Positions 13,447-24,981 of a DNA stretch of 42,288 nt are shown piece after piece. Position 1 is the first letter of the stretch. Each line of letters opens with the position of its first letter. The notes below the pieces were generated by a model, which searched no databases, was not told the DNA's origin, and was given only the letters and a program-made list of their open reading frames with translations. Source of the stretch: Candidatus Fibrimonadaceae bacterium (GTDB lineage Bacteria; Fibrobacterota; Fibrobacteria; Fibrobacterales; Fibrobacteraceae); the NCBI GenBank assembly GCA_031281155.1, contig JAITFT010000059.1, positions 1 through 42,288 on the forward strand, in the 5' to 3' direction. The position numbers and the translations under genes are program-made.

Positions 13447-13532
13447 ATTCTCCTCAGGGAGGTCCAAAGCGAATTTTTCAAAAAATAACGCAACAAAGTA
13501 ACACTTTTTCCTATTTTTGGTGTTTAATAGGT

Positions 13533-15908
13533 ATGAAAAAGACTGTTTTTATATTCTCGCTCCTTTTTGCGGCATTTTTATATGCCGCTCCGCTGTATGC
13601 CGCACCACAGAAAGTTGAACGTTTTTTGCTGGTTGCCGGCGCGAATAACGGTGGCCCGAACAAGGTTTTGCTTCGCTATGCAGAAAGCGATGCCAACTCT
13701 TTCGCAGATGTTATGTCTCAAATGGGAGGCATAGAAAAAAACAATGTTTTGCGGGTTTTTAACCCAAGCACTGCATCTATGCAGAACGGTTTTTCTGAAA
13801 TGGAAAGGCGCTTGCAAAGAAATCCCGGGGCCCGCAGAGAGGTGATTGTATATTATAGCGGCCACGCAGATGAACAAGGTTTAAGGCTTGGCCGTGATAT
13901 TTATAGCTGGGCGGATTTTCGCCAAAGCGTTCACAGCTTGAATGCCGATGTCAAAGTCGCTGTAATTGATGCCTGCGGCTCAGGTGCCATAACCAGAACA
14001 AAGGGCGGCGTTTCAAGGCCGGCTTTTTTGCAAGATGTCAGCAGCGAAATGAAGGGCTACGCATTCTTAACCAGCTCCAATGAAAACGAGGTGAGCCAGG
14101 AAAGCGATCGGCTAAAGGGTAGCTTTTTCACTCACGCTTTGGTGAACGGCCTGCGTGGAGCCGCAGATATGACCGGAGACGGCAAAGTAACTCTAAACGA
14201 AGCATATCAATTTGCATTCAACGAAACAATGCGGCAAACCCAGTCCACAAGCGGCGGAGTGCAGCACCCAAGCCGCGATATGAACCTCGCTGGCACCGGC
14301 GATGTTGTTATGACCGATTTGCGGCAAGTTTCCGCAAGCCTGGTTTTGGAAAAAGATATGGAAGGGAGATTTTTTATCAGAGACGACAAGGGAAATTTGG
14401 TTGCAGAACTTCATAAAATCGTCGGCAGACCTTTGGAGCTAGGTTTACCTTCAGGGAAATATTCCGTGCAAATGGAGGCTCCAAGCCGTCTGTGGAGGGC
14501 CGGCGATTTTGAGCTTAAAAACGGCACAAAACACATTCTTTCAATGAACAATATGAGAAGCATAGATAGAGAAGTAGCCGTAGCTCGCGGCGATGCAGAT
14601 CCTGCGCTTATGAACGGCTTGGACTCCGCTCGCAAGGCTCCATTTACTTTTAATCCTTTTGGGTATAGCAGCGAACCGGCAAACGGCGTGCAATTGGGAT
14701 TACTAACACTTTCAAAAAGAGCTTTTGTAGGAACGCAAATATCCCTTTTTGGAAATATAGCGGCAGACGATATGGCAGGCAGCCAGCTTACGACACTTGG
14801 CAATGTTGCTGTTAAAGATTTTCACGGGATTCAAGGCTCGGCTTTGTTTAATTATGCAAGAGATTTTAGCGGACTGCAAGCTGCTCCCTTTAATTTTGCG
14901 ATAGATGGCAAAGGTTTGCAAGCCGGTGTAATAAATGTTTATGCGCATAATTTAGAAGGCGCACAGGCCTCTGCAATTAATATTGGAGGCAAGGTGACTT
15001 ATGGGCAAGGCGGTGCGATAAATATAGTGGGCAGCACGGAATATGGCCAAGGCGGTGCTATAAATGTAGCAGGCAATGCCGGCAAGATGCAGGGTGGCGC
15101 AATAAACTTAGCTGGTAGCACGGAATATGGCCAAGGCGGCGCTATAAATGTAGCAGGCAACGCCGGCAAGGTGCAGGGTGGCGCAATAAACTTAGCTGGC
15201 AGCACGGAATATGCTCAGGGTGGCGTTATAAATGTTGCTGGGAATGCTGGCCTTATTCAAGGCGGTGTTATAAATGTAGCAGGAAAGGTTGAAACATTGC
15301 AAGGCGGCGTTATAAATGTTGGCGGCCATGTTGGCAGGCAAGTAGGCGTTATAAATATTGCGGCGAAAAGCGAGCACACTCCTATAGGCTTAATAAATAT
15401 TATTGGCAATGGCATTATAGACGCTACATTCTACGCAGATGAAACAGGCAGAGCGGGCACCGTTTTACACATGGGAACTCCTTATCTTTACACGCTTTTT
15501 GAATATACCTTGAAACCAACGCTTAGCGGTGGCTGGAGCGATGCTTTTCCGCAAAGCTGGGGCTTGGGGCTTGGAACTCGTTTTGGAATGTGGAGTAATT
15601 TCTTTAGCCTCGATTACGCCTTCTTAAATACTCACGAGAAAAATCCAAAAAGCTTTGGAATGATGAATGTCAGCAGAAAAGACCCAAGCAACTATTTGCA
15701 TAAAGCTCGCTTTGGCGCTGCATACAAGTTTTTGCCAGGCCTTGCTCTAACAAGCGGCATTACACTAAACGCTCTTTCGGAAGGCTATGGGGACGACTTG
15801 TACGTTGAGCCCCGCGGCGGTTATCACTGGCACTGGACTTTTGGCGAAAAACATAAGGTTCGTTTGTGGCCGGGCTTATACGCTGGCTTAACGGTTGGGA
15901 AGTTTTAG
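13533..15908 (+). CDS. Exported caspase-like protein with repeat solenoid
   Basis: 791 aa. Signal peptide 1-24 (cleavage near LYA-AP). A C14 caspase-like domain spans about 27-260. The catalytic dyad is His111 (IVYYSGHADEQG) and Cys148 (VIDACGSGA), both present. DMTGDGKVTLNEAY (212-225) looks like a calcium-binding loop. A beta domain follows (265-345). About 16 repeats of 14-15 residues cover 385-627, the central ones matching QGG(A/V)IN(V/L)AG plus five variable residues; this predicts a beta-solenoid. Similar G-x-Q-x-G-x-I/V-N repeats occur, from memory, in surface proteins of Leptospira and Bacteroidota. The last 150 residues are aromatic-rich beta strands ending in Phe, as in outer-membrane barrels. 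It is likely a surface or periplasmic protease; target unknown. It stands alone on its strand. Confidence 0.88.
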   Translation: MKKTVFIFSLLFAAFLYAAPLYAAPQKVERFLLVAGANNGGPNKVLLRYAESDANSFADVMSQMGGIEKNNVLRVFNPSTASMQNGFSEMERRLQRNPGARREVIVYYSGHADEQGLRLGRDIYSWADFRQSVHSLNADVKVAVIDACGSGAITRTKGGVSRPAFLQDVSSEMKGYAFLTSSNENEVSQESDRLKGSFFTHALVNGLRGAADMTGDGKVTLNEAYQFAFNETMRQTQSTSGGVQHPSRDMNLAGTGDVVMTDLRQVSASLVLEKDMEGRFFIRDDKGNLVAELHKIVGRPLELGLPSGKYSVQMEAPSRLWRAGDFELKNGTKHILSMNNMRSIDREVAVARGDADPALMNGLDSARKAPFTFNPFGYSSEPANGVQLGLLTLSKRAFVGTQISLFGNIAADDMAGSQLTTLGNVAVKDFHGIQGSALFNYARDFSGLQAAPFNFAIDGKGLQAGVINVYAHNLEGAQASAINIGGKVTYGQGGAINIVGSTEYGQGGAINVAGNAGKMQGGAINLAGSTEYGQGGAINVAGNAGKVQGGAINLAGSTEYAQGGVINVAGNAGLIQGGVINVAGKVETLQGGVINVGGHVGRQVGVINIAAKSEHTPIGLINIIGNGIIDATFYADETGRAGTVLHMGTPYLYTLFEYTLKPTLSGGWSDAFPQSWGLGLGTRFGMWSNFFSLDYAFLNTHEKNPKSFGMMNVSRKDPSNYLHKARFGAAYKFLPGLALTSGITLNALSEGYGDDLYVEPRGGYHWHWTFGEKHKVRLWPGLYAGLTVGKF
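14993..15352 (+). repeat. Tandem 42-bp repeats inside the caspase-like gene
   Basis: Eight to nine 42-bp units encode the QGGAIN solenoid rungs. Alternate units are most alike, giving a higher-order 84-bp period; the two 84-bp copies around 15033-15200 are almost identical in DNA, which shows recent duplication or gene conversion. Confidence 0.85.
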
Positions 15909-16986
15909 CTAAAGGCTTTCGCCCCAGCAACCCCGCTCTATCTGGCACAAATAACATGGCCAACTCCAAACGCCTAAGGTTTGGATGCCATTCTATAGGC
16001 ATGATTTTTCTGAGAACATAGCCGCTGTTTCGCCAGCGGCTGGCTTCTTTTGCAGCATTTTTCAAATCGCCGACTATGTGCACAACTCGCTCGGGTTTGG
16101 CGCCGGCTATTGCCTGCGTTAAGGACTGAGTTAGCAACTCGCTTTTTGACGGGTTTAAAATTATTGTCCATTTGCCTTTGTTTATTTCGCCGGCAAAAAA
16201 TTTCTTAACCCATGTTTCATTCAATACGCTGTGGTAAAAGCGAGCATTTTTTATTTGCAGACTTTGAATATTTTGCACAAAAGATAATTTTGCCCACTCA
16301 CGCGCATCTAAGCAGTGAACGTCTTTGAAATTTTTGCTGAGCTGCATGGCTTCTATTGCCGCTCCTGAGTGGCAGCAAAGCAAACGATCGTCTTTTGCGG
16401 GGTGCAGCCATTCGCTCAGCTTTTCTCCAAAACGCAAATATGTTCCCTTGCTTTTTGGCAGCCAATCTAGAATGTGAAAAAAATATTTGCTCTGCGCAAG
16501 TTGAATATACTCGGAACCGAAGCCTTTGTGCAAAGTGTATTGCATTGCTGGCGGCGGGTTTGAGGTGTCGAAAGGGAAACTCGGTTTTGTTTGAACGGAG
16601 TGCGCGCACAGAATTTCTGGGTGTGTTCTTTGCAAATAATCCAAAAAGGCTTTGTAAGCTCGGCTTTGTTCAGTGGTTTTTAAACCGGCTTGAATTAACA
16701 TTCCGTAATTGGCGTTTCCGTTTGAGCGGAAAATAATTTGAAAAATTTGCCTTTTGAAAGAACGCAAATGCTCTTTATTCAGCTGCTCTTCTATTTTTTG
16801 TAAAATTTTCGGCAAAGGCTCGTCTGGGATTCCGGCCCAAACTAAAGCTGTTCTGCCCTTTATTTCTTTTGCAACATAGCGCCAATCGCCGCCGCCGATT
16901 TCCGGCTCCGCCGTGAAAACGGCTTGCACTTTTCCGGGAATTTTGTTCTCTTTCGCCCAATCACTGATTTTCTGCTTTTTGTCCAT
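15760..16986 (-). CDS. RumA/TrmA-like RNA methyltransferase homologue, catalytic motifs lost
   Basis: 408 aa. The C-terminal half follows the TrmA/RlmD (m5U RNA methyltransferase) pattern: a SAM-fold region (DDRLLCCHSGAAIEAMQLS), NPSKSELLTQ where DPPR is expected, VVHIVGDLKNAAKEA where the catalytic SCNP would be, then GYVLRKIMPIEWHPNLRRLELAMLF. The catalytic Cys and DPPR are missing, so this is a pseudoenzyme or has another activity. The last ~50 residues (after LLG) are basic, unlike the family, and overlap the caspase-like gene by 149 bp. A one-base change in the C4 run at 15922-15925 would instead end the protein at 15909, one base beyond the neighbour's stop. The start overlaps the acyltransferase gene by 26 bp; a TACCTT core lies 9 nt upstream. 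Confidence 0.6.
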   Translation of the reverse strand: MDKKQKISDWAKENKIPGKVQAVFTAEPEIGGGDWRYVAKEIKGRTALVWAGIPDEPLPKILQKIEEQLNKEHLRSFKRQIFQIIFRSNGNANYGMLIQAGLKTTEQSRAYKAFLDYLQRTHPEILCAHSVQTKPSFPFDTSNPPPAMQYTLHKGFGSEYIQLAQSKYFFHILDWLPKSKGTYLRFGEKLSEWLHPAKDDRLLCCHSGAAIEAMQLSKNFKDVHCLDAREWAKLSFVQNIQSLQIKNARFYHSVLNETWVKKFFAGEINKGKWTIILNPSKSELLTQSLTQAIAGAKPERVVHIVGDLKNAAKEASRWRNSGYVLRKIMPIEWHPNLRRLELAMLFVPDRAGLLGRKPLAKTSQPLSQRISPATNEPYVFRQKSSASDNRRGAQRTSRPHSLPKERLV

Positions 16987-17736: not shown

Positions 17737-18927
17737 CTAACTTTTTACAACCGAGTTTAAGGCTGAATCAAAAATTGAGCTAATATCGTGCTGCCCGTCT
17801 CTTACGGATTTTCTCATTTCAATAAGCGCTTTTGCTGCTACATCTGAGGCTTTATTCCAGTGTTCCCATTTTTTGATTTGCTCTAATTCTATCTCTTCTT
17901 GTGAATTTACTTTTTTTGAAGAAAACCCAGAGCGAAAATTTTCTCTTTTCCATTTTACCTCGGCAAATAATGCACCTTTTTCCAAAACTCTTTTTTCTGC
18001 CCATTTAACATCTGGAATAAAATCACTGGCAAGGGATCTGATTTCTATAATGACAATGTCTTCGGCAGAAATACTAAGCAAGGGCAGAAATTTATCAAAT
18101 TCCTCTCTAAACTGTTCGGCACTTTCAGACTCCAAAGTTATTGTTTCCTTAATACAGCTTCTTGGCGTTTGTTCTAAAATTTTATGCTCTTTTGAATGCG
18201 TATCAAAAATAATTGCGGTTTTTAATGCAGGGTTTTCCGCTAAGTCACAATATTCGGGAGAACCCGCTACAAAAAAGAAGGGCTGGATTTCTGGATATTT
18301 TTGCAAACGATGCCCATGCCCGCCAGCTATATAAATTATGCGTTCCTTCATTTTGTCTAGCACGCTTTTATCTTTCAGAAAACCGCCTATAAATTCATTA
18401 TTTCCCAAAGCGGTATGAACAAGCACAACGCAATCTTGCTTATTATTTTTTTCACAATAAGCAGCGAATTCCAGCAATTCATCATCAACAGAAGCACCTG
18501 GATAGCCAAGCCCGAAGATTTCGGTTTCACCAATAAAAATCGAATGATATTCTTTTTCGTTATTTTCTAAAAATTTTACAAAAGGCCTTTGTAGCAATTT
18601 TTTATTTTCCAAATAAATAAGCCAACTTTCCGATTCTTTATTTCTGTAAATCAAATCGTGATTTCCCTCAATAACCACAACTTTAATTTTATGTTCTTTG
18701 CATTTCTGCAAAAGCTTTTCGGTATTGCTCAGAATATTTGGATGCGTTTCTTTTTTATCGAAAAAATCACCCGCAACAAGAATTGCCTCTACGCTATTTT
18801 CTTTTGCTTGCTCTATTATTCGTTTGAATGCGTTAAAATAATCTTCAAAGCGTTTGTTTTTAAATGCTTCCGAACCGAAAGAAGGCTTCTTCCCAAGGTG
18901 TAAATCATTGCAATGTAAAAATTTCAC
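17737..18927 (-). CDS. SbcD/Mre11-like metallophosphoesterase nuclease
   Basis: 396 aa. The five phosphoesterase motifs are visible: NDLHLG (D8, H10), GDFFD near 54, EGNHD near 91, VLVHTAL and AGGHGHR. The order and spacing match SbcD/Mre11, the nuclease that works with an SbcC/Rad50 SMC-type ATPase on DNA ends. A C-terminal domain of about 150 aa is present. No sbcC is adjacent; instead the start overlaps recB by 4 bp (ATGA), in the place where recD is often found. This suggests it assists RecBC or is simply co-transcribed for repair. Confidence 0.82.
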   Translation of the reverse strand: MKFLHCNDLHLGKKPSFGSEAFKNKRFEDYFNAFKRIIEQAKENSVEAILVAGDFFDKKETHPNILSNTEKLLQKCKEHKIKVVVIEGNHDLIYRNKESESWLIYLENKKLLQRPFVKFLENNEKEYHSIFIGETEIFGLGYPGASVDDELLEFAAYCEKNNKQDCVVLVHTALGNNEFIGGFLKDKSVLDKMKERIIYIAGGHGHRLQKYPEIQPFFFVAGSPEYCDLAENPALKTAIIFDTHSKEHKILEQTPRSCIKETITLESESAEQFREEFDKFLPLLSISAEDIVIIEIRSLASDFIPDVKWAEKRVLEKGALFAEVKWKRENFRSGFSSKKVNSQEEIELEQIKKWEHWNKASDVAAKALIEMRKSVRDGQHDISSIFDSALNSVVKS

Positions 18928-21908
18928 TTTTCTTCTCCATTAAAAATTTTATCCAGCTTCTCTACAGAATCTACAATATTTTTTCCATCGGAAAAATAAA
19001 TTCCGTTCAAATTGTTTTCATTAACACCTCTGATAAAAATATAATAAGCACCGCCGAACTGTTTTTTGAAATCAAAATTTTCATGCGTTAATTCAAGCCA
19101 CCTTTTTAGCGCAACGGCGTAAATATAGTATTGCAAATGATAACCGTTTTGCTGCATGGCTTCTTCCATTCCGCTTTGCGAAAAGTCGTTTAAGCTATTT
19201 GACTTCCAATCTAAAATATAATATTTGCCATCCTTGCCGAGAAATACCAAGTCTATTGCGCCTTTAATGTATTTAGCGAGCAATTCTTCCAAAGTAAAAT
19301 CGTAAATTTTTTCTTTCATCGCTTCTTTGATTTTTTTCAAATCTATTTTTTCCGATTTCATAAAAAAATTGAGCTCAACGCTTTTTTTATCAGATTTTAT
19401 ATCGCATAATTTTCCAGCGTTGCCTAAATTTTTATTTAAAGTTACCTGAATTTGTTTTTCAATCCAATTCTTTCTTTCAATTCCATCTTGCCCTGAAAAC
19501 TCTTTGAAACCTCCAAGCTTTCTTTCTACCATCTCTTGAATTTCGTCTATGCTCGCATCAAAATCCAAGTTCTCGAAAATATTATGCAAGAGAATTCCCA
19601 TTCTTTTGCCTTTTGGAATTATATGCTCTTGCGAGGCAGAAAAATCTTTAGTTTCTAAGTACTTGGATATTCCTGTGAAACTTGTTTTTTGCCATGCTGG
19701 TTTTATTTGAAAATTTTCAGGCAGAAATTTTACTTGTTTTAAATTGTTTTCAATAACATTATCTTTGCTGTAATCACACTTTCTTTCAAGAACCTCGTCT
19801 AAATTTTCAATATCAATATTTTCATTTTGTGCAGAAAATTTTTCAAAAATTTCTCTGCAAATGCTATCGCTTTTTCTTTTGCGAGGAGAAAAAACAACAT
19901 ATAATCTGTATTTTGCCCTTGTTAAAGCTACGTATAAAAGCCGGGCTATTTCTTCGTTTTCTCCTTTGCTGCTTAATTCTTTCGCAGGCTCGTTTTTTGC
20001 AAAATACGCTATTGTTTCTCTGCCGTTCGCATGAAAAATATATGGGCTTGGAAATTTATGCACACGTGAAGTTCTGCTGATGTCCGGTACAAAAACTATA
20101 TCGAATTGCAGCCCCTTCGCTCTATGAATAGTCATAATTTTCAAAGCATCTTCATCAGTTTCCAGCCTTTCCTCCGCTTCTTCTTTTTTTTCCGTTTCAC
20201 TGCAAAGCGCGGCCAGGCGGTTATTTATTTTTTCTGGAATTTTTCCAAATTTGACTTCTTCTTCGTTTAAAAGTTCCATTAACTGGCGAATATTCGTTAT
20301 ATTCCGTTCTCCATTTGTATTTGCCGCAATACGCTTCCATAAATTTTGTCTTGTCATAAAAAAATCTATAGCGTTCATAATGCCATGCTTTTCCCATTTT
20401 ATTTTCGCTTCGTAAATAACGTTTGCCCACTCTGTAAAAGCAGCATCTATATTTGAAAGCTCAAAACCGCAGAAATTATTTGTGAGCAAGGCCCTAACAT
20501 ATTTTACGTTGTTATAATAGCAAATTGCATTTAGCAAAACTCTCAAAAAACTTGCTGCTTCGCTTGCAAAAACAGAAGCACCCTTTACAATTGCGAAAAT
20601 GTTTTCTTTCGCCAAGGCGTTTTTATAATTCAGACAATCATTGTTATTATCAAGCAAAATGGCAATATCCTTGGGCTCAAAATTTCCAGAGTTTAACAAG
20701 CGCTTTATCTCTGTGATAACAGCTGCTTGCGCCTTTGGTTCAAATATTTCCTTATTTTCGTTGTTTGCTCCTCTCCAAATCACAAAGGGCTTGTATTGAG
20801 CATCTTTTTCTTTTATTGGTTTAAGTTCTGGCTTTCCGCATTTAACTTTATCGTAGTTTATTTCGTTGCCCATTTTTCCTTTAAAAAAGTCACTGCTGAA
20901 AAAGCTATTTAAAGCATCTAGCAAAGTTTTTTCCGAGCGATAATTTGTATTCATTGAAAATTGATTTTTGCCAGTTGATATTTTTGCTTCGTTGTAAGCG
21001 AAAATATCTCCGCCTCTAAATTTGTAAATCGCTTGTTTGGGGTCGCCAATCATAAAAAACGGCTTGTTTTTAAATAAATAATCGAAAATTTCAAATTGCA
21101 TTTTATCTGTATCTTGAAACTCATCTACCAATATGGCACTGTATCTTTTTTCCACTGCTTTTTGCAATATATTTTTTGAATCATTTTTTATAGCCCTATA
21201 GCAATTTTCAATCATATCATTAAAATCCATGATTTTTAATTTTCTTTTTTCTTCTGATATTTTTTCATAAACTTCTTTTGCCAATTTATAAACTATTGCA
21301 TATTTTAGCTTTCTCTCTGCATCTTTTTTCTTGCCGTCATCAGTTATATTTTTATACTCTATTAAAGCCTGCTCATAATCTTCGCCAGCAATTTTTGCTT
21401 GTGAATGATTTAAAATAACATCTACAGCATTTGACAATTCTTTTGGATTAAGCGCAATTATTTCATCTAAATTTTGAATTTCCCTTCTCCAAAAATCTGC
21501 AACAATTCTATCTTTAATATGGTTTGAATCTGTAGCAATTTCTTTTTCTTCAAAATTTCCAATTTCAAAAGCGAATTCGCTTAATAGTCTTTCGCAAAAA
21601 CCATGAATGGTGAAAACTGGCATTTCGTCTATGCGGGCAATAGCATCTAATAAATTTACTTTTTTTTCGTTAGGGCCATTTTCCCATGTATCATACGCTT
21701 CTCTAATTTTTTCCCAAGTGTTTTTTTTGAGTTCGGCAGTTGCTGCTTTTGTAAAAGTTATCAAAGCTATTTTGTCGATGGGTATGTTTTTTTCCAAAAG
21801 CAAACGAAGCACAATTAAACCAATGGTATAAGTCTTGCCGGTACCCGCACTCGCCTCAATGAGCACTTTTTTATCAAGCGGCAAGTTTTGTACATCAAGT
21901 ATTTGCAT
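18924..21908 (-). CDS. recB: RecB-like helicase-nuclease
   Basis: 994 aa, superfamily 1 UvrD-type helicase with a C-terminal nuclease. Walker A EASAGTGKT (18-26), LITFTKAATAELK, FTIHGFCERLL, VDEFQDTD, GDPKQAIYKFRGGDIFAY, TIHRAKGLQFDIVFVP and LLYVALTRAKYRLYVVF are all present. The RecB nuclease site is GAIDLVF (D886) and ILDWK (D900, K902) with a downstream QYYIYAVAL, so it should cut DNA. It is about 190 aa shorter than the E. coli protein. It overlaps recC by 14 bp upstream and the SbcD-like gene by 4 bp downstream. AddA is the main alternative, but the RecC-like partner and motif details favour RecB. Confidence 0.92.
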   Translation of the reverse strand: MQILDVQNLPLDKKVLIEASAGTGKTYTIGLIVLRLLLEKNIPIDKIALITFTKAATAELKKNTWEKIREAYDTWENGPNEKKVNLLDAIARIDEMPVFTIHGFCERLLSEFAFEIGNFEEKEIATDSNHIKDRIVADFWRREIQNLDEIIALNPKELSNAVDVILNHSQAKIAGEDYEQALIEYKNITDDGKKKDAERKLKYAIVYKLAKEVYEKISEEKRKLKIMDFNDMIENCYRAIKNDSKNILQKAVEKRYSAILVDEFQDTDKMQFEIFDYLFKNKPFFMIGDPKQAIYKFRGGDIFAYNEAKISTGKNQFSMNTNYRSEKTLLDALNSFFSSDFFKGKMGNEINYDKVKCGKPELKPIKEKDAQYKPFVIWRGANNENKEIFEPKAQAAVITEIKRLLNSGNFEPKDIAILLDNNNDCLNYKNALAKENIFAIVKGASVFASEAASFLRVLLNAICYYNNVKYVRALLTNNFCGFELSNIDAAFTEWANVIYEAKIKWEKHGIMNAIDFFMTRQNLWKRIAANTNGERNITNIRQLMELLNEEEVKFGKIPEKINNRLAALCSETEKKEEAEERLETDEDALKIMTIHRAKGLQFDIVFVPDISRTSRVHKFPSPYIFHANGRETIAYFAKNEPAKELSSKGENEEIARLLYVALTRAKYRLYVVFSPRKRKSDSICREIFEKFSAQNENIDIENLDEVLERKCDYSKDNVIENNLKQVKFLPENFQIKPAWQKTSFTGISKYLETKDFSASQEHIIPKGKRMGILLHNIFENLDFDASIDEIQEMVERKLGGFKEFSGQDGIERKNWIEKQIQVTLNKNLGNAGKLCDIKSDKKSVELNFFMKSEKIDLKKIKEAMKEKIYDFTLEELLAKYIKGAIDLVFLGKDGKYYILDWKSNSLNDFSQSGMEEAMQQNGYHLQYYIYAVALKRWLELTHENFDFKKQFGGAYYIFIRGVNENNLNGIYFSDGKNIVDSVEKLDKIFNGEEK

Positions 21909-24900
21909 TTTTTACTTCTGCTCCATTATAATTTTCAAATAATTTCTCCGAACATTCTATAAATTCTCTCTCCACGCCTAAATCCTTAAACGCTTTTGCG
22001 TTTCCCAAAAGCATTTTTGCGTATTGCGAATGATATTTATATTCAAAAAAAATCTTTTCTGCGGCTTTTATTTTTTTTTCTGTTTTTAAATATTCCCATG
22101 CGGCATTTGGGAAAATCGGCAGCATTTTTGTTTTTAATTCATTTGCTAATTCCCATAATTTTTCAATTTCCTTCTGTGCTTCCTTTTTTGATAATTTTGG
22201 CAATCTAATTTTTCCTGTTTTCAAAATAATGTCTGAATCCATTGCTTCTGTTAAATTCAATTCCAAATGCTTTAGCCAATGCCACAGCCTGTATTTTCCT
22301 TTATCATCGCTGGGTCTAATGAAAGTTCGGACATTTTTATCTTCCAGTTTTTTCATTTCATGGATTTCTTCTATTTTCTTTTCTATAATTTTATCGGCAA
22401 ATTTTCCGCTTGGCAATTTGCCTCTGAGCTTGAAAATTTTAATTTCTCTATTATAATCTTCTTCATTTTTCAAAATCAAATCTGCCAATTCCCATTCGCT
22501 CAAACCTTTCTCCACAATAAAAGGCTCTGTATTCTCCAGCAAATCTGCCTCTTCTGGCAATTCTATATTGCATACAGTTTTTAAGAAGTATTTTGGAGTG
22601 TCAGATAAAATTCTATACAAGCTATCAATATCCTTTTTTTCTTCTGTTTTTTCAAAAGCAGCTTTCCACTCCCAAATATTTTTTCCGCTAGCCGCTAGCC
22701 ACTGGCCATTGGCCGCTAACCACCTGTTATCGTAGGTGCTTAGAGTTCCGTTGCAATATTTTTTTGAGAAGGGTTGCAAAGGGTGTTTTGTGATTAGGTT
22801 TTTTGTTTTTATGCCGTATTGTTCTTCCAAATTTTTTAAAAGCATGATTACTACGCTGGAAGGTTCCAGCTCTTCTGCGTTTTTTTCGTCTTGGCCTACC
22901 CAGCTTATGTAGAGAGTTTGTTTTGCGCTGAGAATTGTTTCTAGGAAAATTTGACGATCTTCATTTGCTGTATCTTTGTCGCCTGGTTCGTATTCTGCTA
23001 TAAGGCTGATTTCTTTGTTTTTTGTTTGGCGAGGAAATTCTTTGCTGTTCATTCCAACGCAGCAAAATACTTTGTGCGGAAAGGTTCTGAGGCTTTCTAA
23101 ATTTGAGAAAGAAAGCAGGCCGCTTAGGGAATAGGAGGATTTGGCATTTGATTCTAATTTTTTTGGCAAGGCGCTTTTCAAAGCAGAGAAGTTTATGAGC
23201 GTGCTTGAATTATTGTTAAAGCCTATAAGCATTTCTTTTTTTAATGAATCCCAAGCGTTAATGATTTTTTGGTAAGGATTGTCTTTGTCTTCGTTAAAAT
23301 TTATTTCATCGGTACCGAAAAATATTTGGAATTTTTCTTTGAAAAAATAATCCCAATTTTCAATGCTTTTTTCTTTTTTGCTTGCTTCCTCAAATTCTCG
23401 CAAGGTATTTACAAAGCAAACAAAGTCTCCTAATATTTTGGTAGCGTTGCCTTCTATATCTGGATAGCAATAATCGTTATTTTCAGAAAATTCATTTTCT
23501 GAAAGCATAAAAAAGCCTGCGGCTAGTTGCTTAAATCCGCTTTCAAAGGAGTAGTTTGGCGGCGGTATATCAAAACTTTCCAAACCGTGCCTTATTGCGT
23601 TTTCCCTAACCCACTTTTCCAAACGATCTATCTCGCTTGATTCCAACTCCTTGCCTTGCACATACATTGAATATTCAAACAGAGAGACAATATCAGCGGC
23701 TTCGTATCTGCTGCCGATTTGCGCAAAAAGCATATTCAAAAGTTGTGCGGTTTTGCTGCTTTTTTTTACATCGTGGCCTGCAATTTTATAAGGAATGCCA
23801 TTGCGTTCAAAAACGCTTTCTATCGCACTTGCGTAATTTTCAATATTCGGAGAAACAACGGCAATATCCGCTGGCGTTAATTCTTTGTTTTCTACAAATA
23901 AATCTAAAATATAATCGCATAAAACTTCAATTTCTCGCAAGGGTGAGAAGCAGTTGTTGAGGATAATGGAGTTATCTATTTCGCATTCTGTTTTTTCGTT
24001 TTCATCGTTGATTATGTTTGCTTGGAGTTTTGAGAGGAGAGTCGCATTACTTTTGCCTGAGTCGAAGTTGGCTAAAATTAGAGGAATTTCAGAATATTCT
24101 AAATTTAATGCTAGGATTAGTTCATATAGTGTTTGAGCGTTTCGGCCTAGGTTGGCTATTAGTCTGTTGCCTAGGTCCCAATATAGCTCGGTTTCGTTTA
24201 TGATTTTGTTTTCTTGCCAGGATTTTTTTCGCAAGTTTGCGATTTTTTTGTCGCTTAAATGGTCGCCTATGTACTCGTTGCTGATTTGGTGCAGGTATAA
24301 GTTGACTTTGCAGCCGGTTTTGGCTATGAGAGTTAGCGTTTTTAAATGGATTGGGGCTATTGATAAGGGAGCAAAGATGAAAATTTGTTTTGGCAGGAAG
24401 TTTTTTTCGGCTAATTCGCTTTCTATTAGTTTGTAAAGTTGGGAAACATCCAATTCATTATATTCTTTTTTTAATTTAAGCCAAAGTTCTCTTTGCCATT
24501 TTTCATTGTTTTTGAAGTTCTCATCGGCATTTTTAATTTTATAAACTTCGCCTTTATTCCATTTTTCAATTAGCTTTGGTCTGTAAATTTGATATGCCGC
24601 AAACAGAGACGCTATTTCGCTGGCAAAGGAAAAAGTTTTTTCCGGCCCTTCCAGAAATCTGTAAATTGCCCATACCAAATTATTTGCATTGAAAATATTT
24701 TCCTTTTCATCTTTTTTTCGGTCTTTTGGCGAGAGGTTATAAGCGCATTGCATTAAAAGCCCTGCGAGCGGTTTAAAAGGCAGGGCAGTCCAAATTCCAT
24801 GCTTGTCTGCGCATTCTTTTTGCAAATATTCCTGTAAGCCTTTTGATTCGCAAACGATTACGCTCCCGCCAGTTAAAAAGCCGCCCTTTGCAGAATTTGC

Positions 24901-24981
24901 GCCGAAGTTATCTTTTGACAGAATATCTTTTAGGAGCTTGCCAGCGAGAGTTTTTAGGCTTGTGTGTGGGAATATGTGCAT
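21895..24981 (-). CDS. recC: RecC-like exonuclease V subunit
   Basis: 1028 aa, close to the length of RecC (1122). RecC is a helicase-like, mostly inactive scaffold that splits DNA strands and recognises Chi. Recognised by FAPLSIAPIHLKTL, ADIAVVSPNIENYASAIESVFERNGIPY, SLFEYSMYVQGKELES, LSGLLSFSNLESLRTFPHKVFCCVGMNSKEFPR and LYISWVGQDE. No Walker A is present, as in RecC. A 42-bp array of six heptanucleotides (22685-22726) is read through in frame as WLAANGQWLAASG. ATG 24981 is 8 nt after a TATATT core with no Shine-Dalgarno. It is the first gene of the recC-recB-SbcD-like-LpxL-like operon. Confidence 0.88.
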   Translation of the reverse strand: MHIFPHTSLKTLAGKLLKDILSKDNFGANSAKGGFLTGGSVIVCESKGLQEYLQKECADKHGIWTALPFKPLAGLLMQCAYNLSPKDRKKDEKENIFNANNLVWAIYRFLEGPEKTFSFASEIASLFAAYQIYRPKLIEKWNKGEVYKIKNADENFKNNEKWQRELWLKLKKEYNELDVSQLYKLIESELAEKNFLPKQIFIFAPLSIAPIHLKTLTLIAKTGCKVNLYLHQISNEYIGDHLSDKKIANLRKKSWQENKIINETELYWDLGNRLIANLGRNAQTLYELILALNLEYSEIPLILANFDSGKSNATLLSKLQANIINDENEKTECEIDNSIILNNCFSPLREIEVLCDYILDLFVENKELTPADIAVVSPNIENYASAIESVFERNGIPYKIAGHDVKKSSKTAQLLNMLFAQIGSRYEAADIVSLFEYSMYVQGKELESSEIDRLEKWVRENAIRHGLESFDIPPPNYSFESGFKQLAAGFFMLSENEFSENNDYCYPDIEGNATKILGDFVCFVNTLREFEEASKKEKSIENWDYFFKEKFQIFFGTDEINFNEDKDNPYQKIINAWDSLKKEMLIGFNNNSSTLINFSALKSALPKKLESNAKSSYSLSGLLSFSNLESLRTFPHKVFCCVGMNSKEFPRQTKNKEISLIAEYEPGDKDTANEDRQIFLETILSAKQTLYISWVGQDEKNAEELEPSSVVIMLLKNLEEQYGIKTKNLITKHPLQPFSKKYCNGTLSTYDNRWLAANGQWLAASGKNIWEWKAAFEKTEEKKDIDSLYRILSDTPKYFLKTVCNIELPEEADLLENTEPFIVEKGLSEWELADLILKNEEDYNREIKIFKLRGKLPSGKFADKIIEKKIEEIHEMKKLEDKNVRTFIRPSDDKGKYRLWHWLKHLELNLTEAMDSDIILKTGKIRLPKLSKKEAQKEIEKLWELANELKTKMLPIFPNAAWEYLKTEKKIKAAEKIFFEYKYHSQYAKMLLGNAKAFKDLGVEREFIECSEKLFENYNGAEVKNANT
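22685..22726. repeat. Heptanucleotide array inside recC
   Basis: Six 7-bp units on the plus strand: CCGCTAG, CCGCTAG, CCACTGG, CCATTGG, CCGCTAA, CCACCTG. Six units make 42 bp, so the reading frame of recC is preserved. It resembles the short tandem heptamer repeats known from cyanobacteria and elsewhere. Confidence 0.8.

Follow-up and report, generated by a model that had tools for sequence, protein, structure and literature searches.

Bacterial relatives of the caspases are usually presumed to act in death or defence. In the operon section of their survey, Asplund-Samuelsson et al. (2012, PMC3501461) list sigma-70 genes in metacaspase operons, with Fibrobacter and Myxococcus among the listed genomes; that section places the sigma-metacaspase operons in a general transcription category, and makes no mention there of an anti-sigma factor, export, a barrel, a promoter, TonB or a sequence motif. 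In type III-E CRISPR systems, the caspase-like protease Csx29 cuts the sigma inhibitor Csx30 (PMC10028731, Science 2022). Here we describe an exported caspase that appears to be kept in a gene-control module throughout the Fibrobacterota, a phylum that includes the cultured rumen genus Fibrobacter. None of these features, whether the exported, barrel-anchored form of caspase, the DUF4384 anti-sigma factor, the TonB regulon or the shared motif, was described in the literature searched, and the protein is not mentioned in the main texts of the Fibrobacter envelope proteome studies searched.

The gene is located at 13533-15908 on the + strand of the window, the whole 42,288-nucleotide stretch of DNA that was analysed. 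Its verified reading frame encodes 791 amino acids, comprising an exported caspase, an Ig-like domain, LA_2272-type repeats and a barrel-like end. Residues ~1-24 (13533..13604, +) make up the signal peptide MKKTVFIFSLLFAAFLYAAPLYAAPQ, recognized by inspection from its hydrophobic core and small-residue site and conserved in the homologues; the export proposed in the original prediction is supported. The caspase domain covers residues ~28-256 (13614..14300, +), and its core, residues 45-212, was matched by Peptidase_C14 (PF00656) in Pfam with an E-value of 9.9e-11 and a score of 42.2 bits (cut-off 21.4). The top Foldseek matches of a model of this domain were caspases and legumain, none of them below an E-value of 1e-3. 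The protein has the same C14 domain as the prokaryotic metacaspases and orthocaspases, with the His/Cys dyad formed by His111 (13863..13865, +) and Cys148 (13974..13976, +) and an Asp, Asp146, at Cys-2. His111 and the DAC triplet are invariant in the aligned homologues, and the dyad, together with the GH and DACxSG motifs around it, was intact in every full-length copy read; this confirms the intact dyad first noted for the window protein, and its loss from all close homologues is clearly not what is seen. No CHAT domain was found on the protein, C14 being matched instead, and assignment to the EACC1-type conflict-system caspases was rejected, the score of 52 bits falling short of the cut-off of 140. 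Residues ~265-340 (14325..14552, +) form a small Ig-like beta domain of seven predicted strands, which is conserved across the phylum and has no name in Pfam. A convergent 408-amino-acid ORF on the opposite strand (15760-16986, -) overlaps the final ~149 bp of the gene.

The caspase gene was found in 98/111 genomes of the family and 134/159 genomes of the phylum, a few of these matches being weak, and its close relatives are Candidatus Fibrimonadaceae/Fibrimonadales MAGs. The domain order recurs across the Fibrobacterota, where the original prediction had proposed that it be sought. Two forms occur in the phylum: a short form of ~500-600 amino acids, consisting of the signal peptide, the caspase, the beta domain and a short end, and a long form, that of the window protein, in which LA_2272-type repeats and a barrel-like end replace the short end. 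In class Fibrobacteria (L085-L089, L092 and L103), paralogous operons of sigma factor, anti-sigma factor and short caspase are found beside the long form, and some genomes therefore hold several such modules. Given the caspase homology, a programmed-death or fratricide protease set off by envelope stress might be considered, and a general role of this kind for prokaryotic homologues is proposed in PMC3501461. Against such a protease stand the core-like distribution of the gene within the family, the lack of defence-type neighbours among the annotated genes of the window, and the lack of any toxin or NTPase domain in a Pfam scan of the protein, and we regard it as very unlikely. No Cas7-11-type effector or CRISPR parts were seen among the annotated neighbours. 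Elsewhere in the window (18924-24981, -) are two adjacent large genes, the first of which encodes an AddAB/RecB-like UvrD-type helicase with a PD-(D/E)XK end and is likely ordinary.

Among relatives whose loci have long enough flanking sequence, the caspase is in nearly all cases the third gene of an operon, following an ECF sigma factor and a membrane anti-sigma factor. The exceptions are the window's genus (g1) and one neighbouring genus (g2), the only two in which the operon is split; in g1 this holds for most genomes, with G010 still having it joined. The anti-sigma factor crosses the membrane once; its N-terminus is zf-HC2-like or degenerate, and its periplasmic domain resembles DUF4384. 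Pfam searches of the relatives' operons gave matches to ECF sigma, zf-HC2 and DUF4384, those to zf-HC2 and DUF4384 being weak and some anti-sigma factors having no match. In Fibrobacter, the locus runs in the order sigma factor, anti-sigma factor, caspase, receptor, lipoprotein, coiled-coil proteins, ExbD, TonB and TPR protein. A hand count from two tables covering 106 family genomes, in which four weak caspase matches were scored as absent, gave 87 genomes with both the caspase and the anti-sigma factor, three in which the caspase stood alone, namely two drafts and the genome of the window, none in which the anti-sigma factor did, and 16 with neither (Fisher p 2.6e-16, kinship among the genomes being ignored). 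Losses of the whole module, in which caspase and anti-sigma factor are missing together, were seen in several genera. When other phyla were searched, the anti-sigma factor had no match among plasmid records, and the caspases there were only distant. That the caspase belongs to an ECF sigma/anti-sigma module is well supported.

An ECF-sigma-type promoter element, GTAACACTTT-N11-GGTGTT, lies 8 bp before the ATG of the window gene (13498..13524, +); it is a perfect match to a motif common to the relatives, and the sole one within the window. In class Fibrobacteria, GTRACACTTT-N11-GGTGTT precedes the sigma gene near its start codon, and in the window's genus it is also found directly before the split-off caspase gene; an autoregulatory promoter common to the sigma and caspase genes is present, by sequence motif alone. 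The strict pattern gave one match in the 2.57-Mb genome of the window (0 for a reversed control) and 17 matches in 12 genomes of its genus (3 for the reversed control). Further sites, some with one mismatch, precede the genes of a TonB-dependent receptor, ExbD-TonB-TPR proteins, a lipoprotein, a coiled-coil protein and a DUF2141 protein in the relatives, and G003, a genome with neither caspase nor anti-sigma factor, has zero sites. From this distribution of the shared motif, the caspase is very probably a member of the regulon, and under the control, of the operon's ECF sigma factor. In Fibrobacter G059 and G094 (L165, L156, L170 and L173), the ECF-type motif, exact or with one mismatch, precedes genes whose products were judged by eye to be flavodoxin/NADPH-FMN-reductase-like, which suggests a redox arm of the regulon. 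At L135:175-2532 (-) and L138:608-3019 (-), a TonB-dependent receptor under a promoter of the GTRACACTTT-N11-GGTGTT type has an N-terminal domain, FNGxxxD...LPxDTxWxxCV, in which Pfam recognizes no known signalling domain.

A gene placed in this way might be a mere output of the sigma factor, in which case other proteases, of the RseP/Prc type, would free the anti-sigma factor and the caspase would process other envelope proteins, for instance the TonB-dependent receptor, the lipoprotein or surface proteins belonging to the regulon. The promoter and operon common to caspase and sigma factor are in keeping with such a role, the third position in the operon suits a target no less than a regulator, and periplasmic proteolysis is known in TonB receptor systems (PMC11637429). 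By itself, however, it does not account for the TRxK|G match, described below, between the caspase loop and the anti-sigma factor near its membrane span, or for the way in which caspase and anti-sigma factor are almost always present or lost together; we consider it possible but on the improbable side.

In the window's own genome, a 219-contig draft that is 92% complete, neither the sigma factor nor the anti-sigma factor was found by protein, Pfam family or DNA synteny search. The pair is missing from the place syntenic to that of the nearest relative's pair, and the receptor gene of this genome is without the promoter motif. The missing pair may reflect an assembly gap or a loss. If these absences are genuine, the protein of this species, and of this species only, might be untied from any sigma factor, either as a relic or put to another use, a situation compatible with any of the other explanations elsewhere in the phylum. 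The perfect promoter motif, the intact ORF with all of its motifs and the draft state of the assembly argue against this, and it seems improbable to us.

A cut of the anti-sigma factor by the caspase is suggested by a shared motif. Nine residues past Cys148, the window caspase has a loop with the motif TRTK|GG, in which K157-G158 (14001..14006, +) is a candidate self-cleavage site. In the 94 caspases that match the pattern, the loop reads TRxKGG or a close form; P1 is Lys or Arg in 94/94 and P3 is Arg in 81; two other caspases have TRLKGA and TRGKGA, and the loop is missing from three distant bacterial caspases. We take it to be the loop where animal caspases are cut for activation. The position of the activation site in caspases is discussed in PMC4357240, where metacaspases are described as cleaving after Arg/Lys, and Asp146 at Cys-2 together with the putative TRxK|G site would fit cleavage of this metacaspase type. 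In the anti-sigma factor, TRxKG is found between the membrane span and the DUF4384 core, at a varying distance from the span, with Lys-Gly in 77/79 sequences and a conservation like that of the DUF4384 core itself. The conservation of the caspase loop could instead serve the fold or substrate binding, and the anti-sigma KG could be part of the edge of the DUF4384 domain.

A second candidate cleavage site in the caspase, R352-G353 (14586..14591, +), is located in the linker between the Ig-like domain and the repeats, where a [KR]G occupies the same alignment column in 27/30 caspases and the linker is otherwise variable. Since about half of the 55-amino-acid stretches in these proteins contain a [KR]G, its presence alone is not significant and only the aligned position counts. 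L094 (G115) has Arg in place of the P1 Lys at each of the three candidate sites, making this genome a natural test case, and the related L098 has Arg in the loop only. In the clade with an aromatic P2 residue in the loop, the P2 of the anti-sigma factor is mostly aromatic too (10/14 vs 0/40). This covariation is striking by Fisher test, but it was rejected as proof of co-evolution and is not independent evidence, because it goes back to what is in essence a single event on the tree.

In the long form, the linker leads into ~16 repeats of 13-16 residues of the GxQxGxINxA / QGG(A/V)IN type (14685..15368, +). The 16 units run from Q387 to Q603 at spacings of 13-16 residues, the majority being exactly 14 apart, and the DNA beneath them is a tandem repeat with a period of 84 bp and 89% matches. 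The NF047436 model (LA_2272_repeat) scored above its cut-off in four homologues (L039, L050, L051 and L054), and the window protein's own repeats fell below it; we read the latter as being of the LA_2272 surface-repeat kind. Two AlphaFold2 runs with five-sequence alignments gave weak models (pTM 0.32 and 0.34), in which the repeats took the form, at low global confidence, of regular 11-residue strands joined by 3-residue turns. The regular ~14-residue repeats of the original prediction are thus borne out, but the solenoid fold proposed for them is absent from both low-confidence models and from the best Foldseek matches. The remaining residues, ~629-791 (15417..15905, +), form the barrel-like end, the final residue being F. 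A separate model of this end gave a Foldseek probability of 1.0 to the 8-strand outer-membrane barrels OprF-N, Opa60 and NspA, with E-values of at least 2.5e-3 and a weak model. Pfam gave no barrel family match in this end, and a Pfam barrel search of the C-termini of the short forms was also without a match. The aromatic-rich end noted earlier is real, and in the low-confidence model it resembles an outer-membrane barrel of eight strands. An exported Persicobacter protein that stands alone is matched by residues 400-791, indicating that the repeats and the end make up a module of their own, joined here to a caspase. Two Persicobacter plasmids (L175:3761-5086 and L176:3578-4846) encode stand-alone exported proteins, unannotated in the plasmid table, that combine LA_2272-type repeats with a barrel-like end.

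The signal peptide, the LA_2272-type repeats and the barrel-like end together could describe a surface-exposed protease held out by its repeats for contact with substrates or other cells, as was first suggested for this protein. A passenger that precedes an 8-strand barrel in the chain normally remains periplasmic, which counts against such an arrangement, and the caspase domain is more likely to be periplasmic than at the surface. The gene also sits in a sigma/anti-sigma/TonB regulon, and the short forms found across the phylum retain the operon without having the repeats, so that the wider evidence points away from a contact role and towards an envelope regulon of the ECF sigma/anti-sigma/TonB type. 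Outward-acting metacaspases have been suggested by Asplund-Samuelsson et al. (PMC3501461), and a surface protease of this kind seems to us quite unlikely here.

The explanation that we prefer, at a confidence a little short of even, is that the protein is an outer-membrane-anchored, metacaspase-like protease of an envelope-signalling module, which would cut the anti-sigma factor at TRxK|G and so free the sigma factor. To the domains, intact dyad, operon, co-occurrence, promoter motif and cleavage-site-like motif, which come from the sequences, this proposal adds a topology, an activation and a cleavage that we infer. The C-terminal barrel, as suggested by the weak model (pTM 0.34), would anchor the protein to the outer membrane, with the repeats as a stalk that keeps the caspase in the periplasm. 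Activation would come from an envelope signal, probably accompanied by self-cleavage at K157|G158 and by release at R352|G353. The activated caspase would then cut the anti-sigma factor close to the outer face of the inner membrane, on the C-terminal side of the Lys in TRxK|G, and with this cut the sigma factor would begin to be released and the sigma, caspase and receptor genes would be induced. With rather more reserve, we extend the proposal to the phylum as a whole, where an outer-membrane-tethered caspase might make the first cut in an ECF anti-sigma factor, cleaving both itself and this substrate at the same TRxK|G site, in a transmembrane signalling route. Because the sequences point to a probable substrate, a probable site of cleavage and a promoter, what an exported caspase naturally does in a bacterium can be tested directly.

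Several described systems resemble parts of this module. Like the systems of the RseA/DegS and RsiW type, it has a membrane anti-sigma factor with a periplasmic domain, an autoregulated ECF sigma factor and a proposed periplasmic first cut, but the protease making that cut would be a caspase rather than a PDZ serine protease, and the anti-sigma factor has a DUF4384 domain. With Fec/Fox cell-surface signalling (PMC11637429) it has in common an ECF sigma factor, an anti-sigma factor and a TonB-dependent receptor under one promoter type, and it differs in its extra caspase and in that a FecR-type anti-sigma factor and STN were not detected: the anti-sigma factors matched zf-HC2 and DUF4384 or nothing, and the two receptors scanned had Plug and no STN. 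The LA_2272 surface-repeat proteins (NF047436) and the VC2662 family (NF047437) are also close: repeats of homologues exceed the NF047436 cut-off, and in the window protein the repeats are fused behind a caspase. As with Csx29, Csx30 and CASP-sigma, a protease of the caspase superfamily would cut the protein that inhibits an ECF-like sigma factor. Csx29 is a cytoplasmic, RNA-triggered TPR-CHAT protease that works with a CRISPR effector, whereas the window protein is of the C14 type, is exported and has no CRISPR parts in view. If the proposal is true, the two would be parallel cases, which would suggest that the cutting of sigma-factor inhibitors is a task to which this protease superfamily has been put repeatedly.
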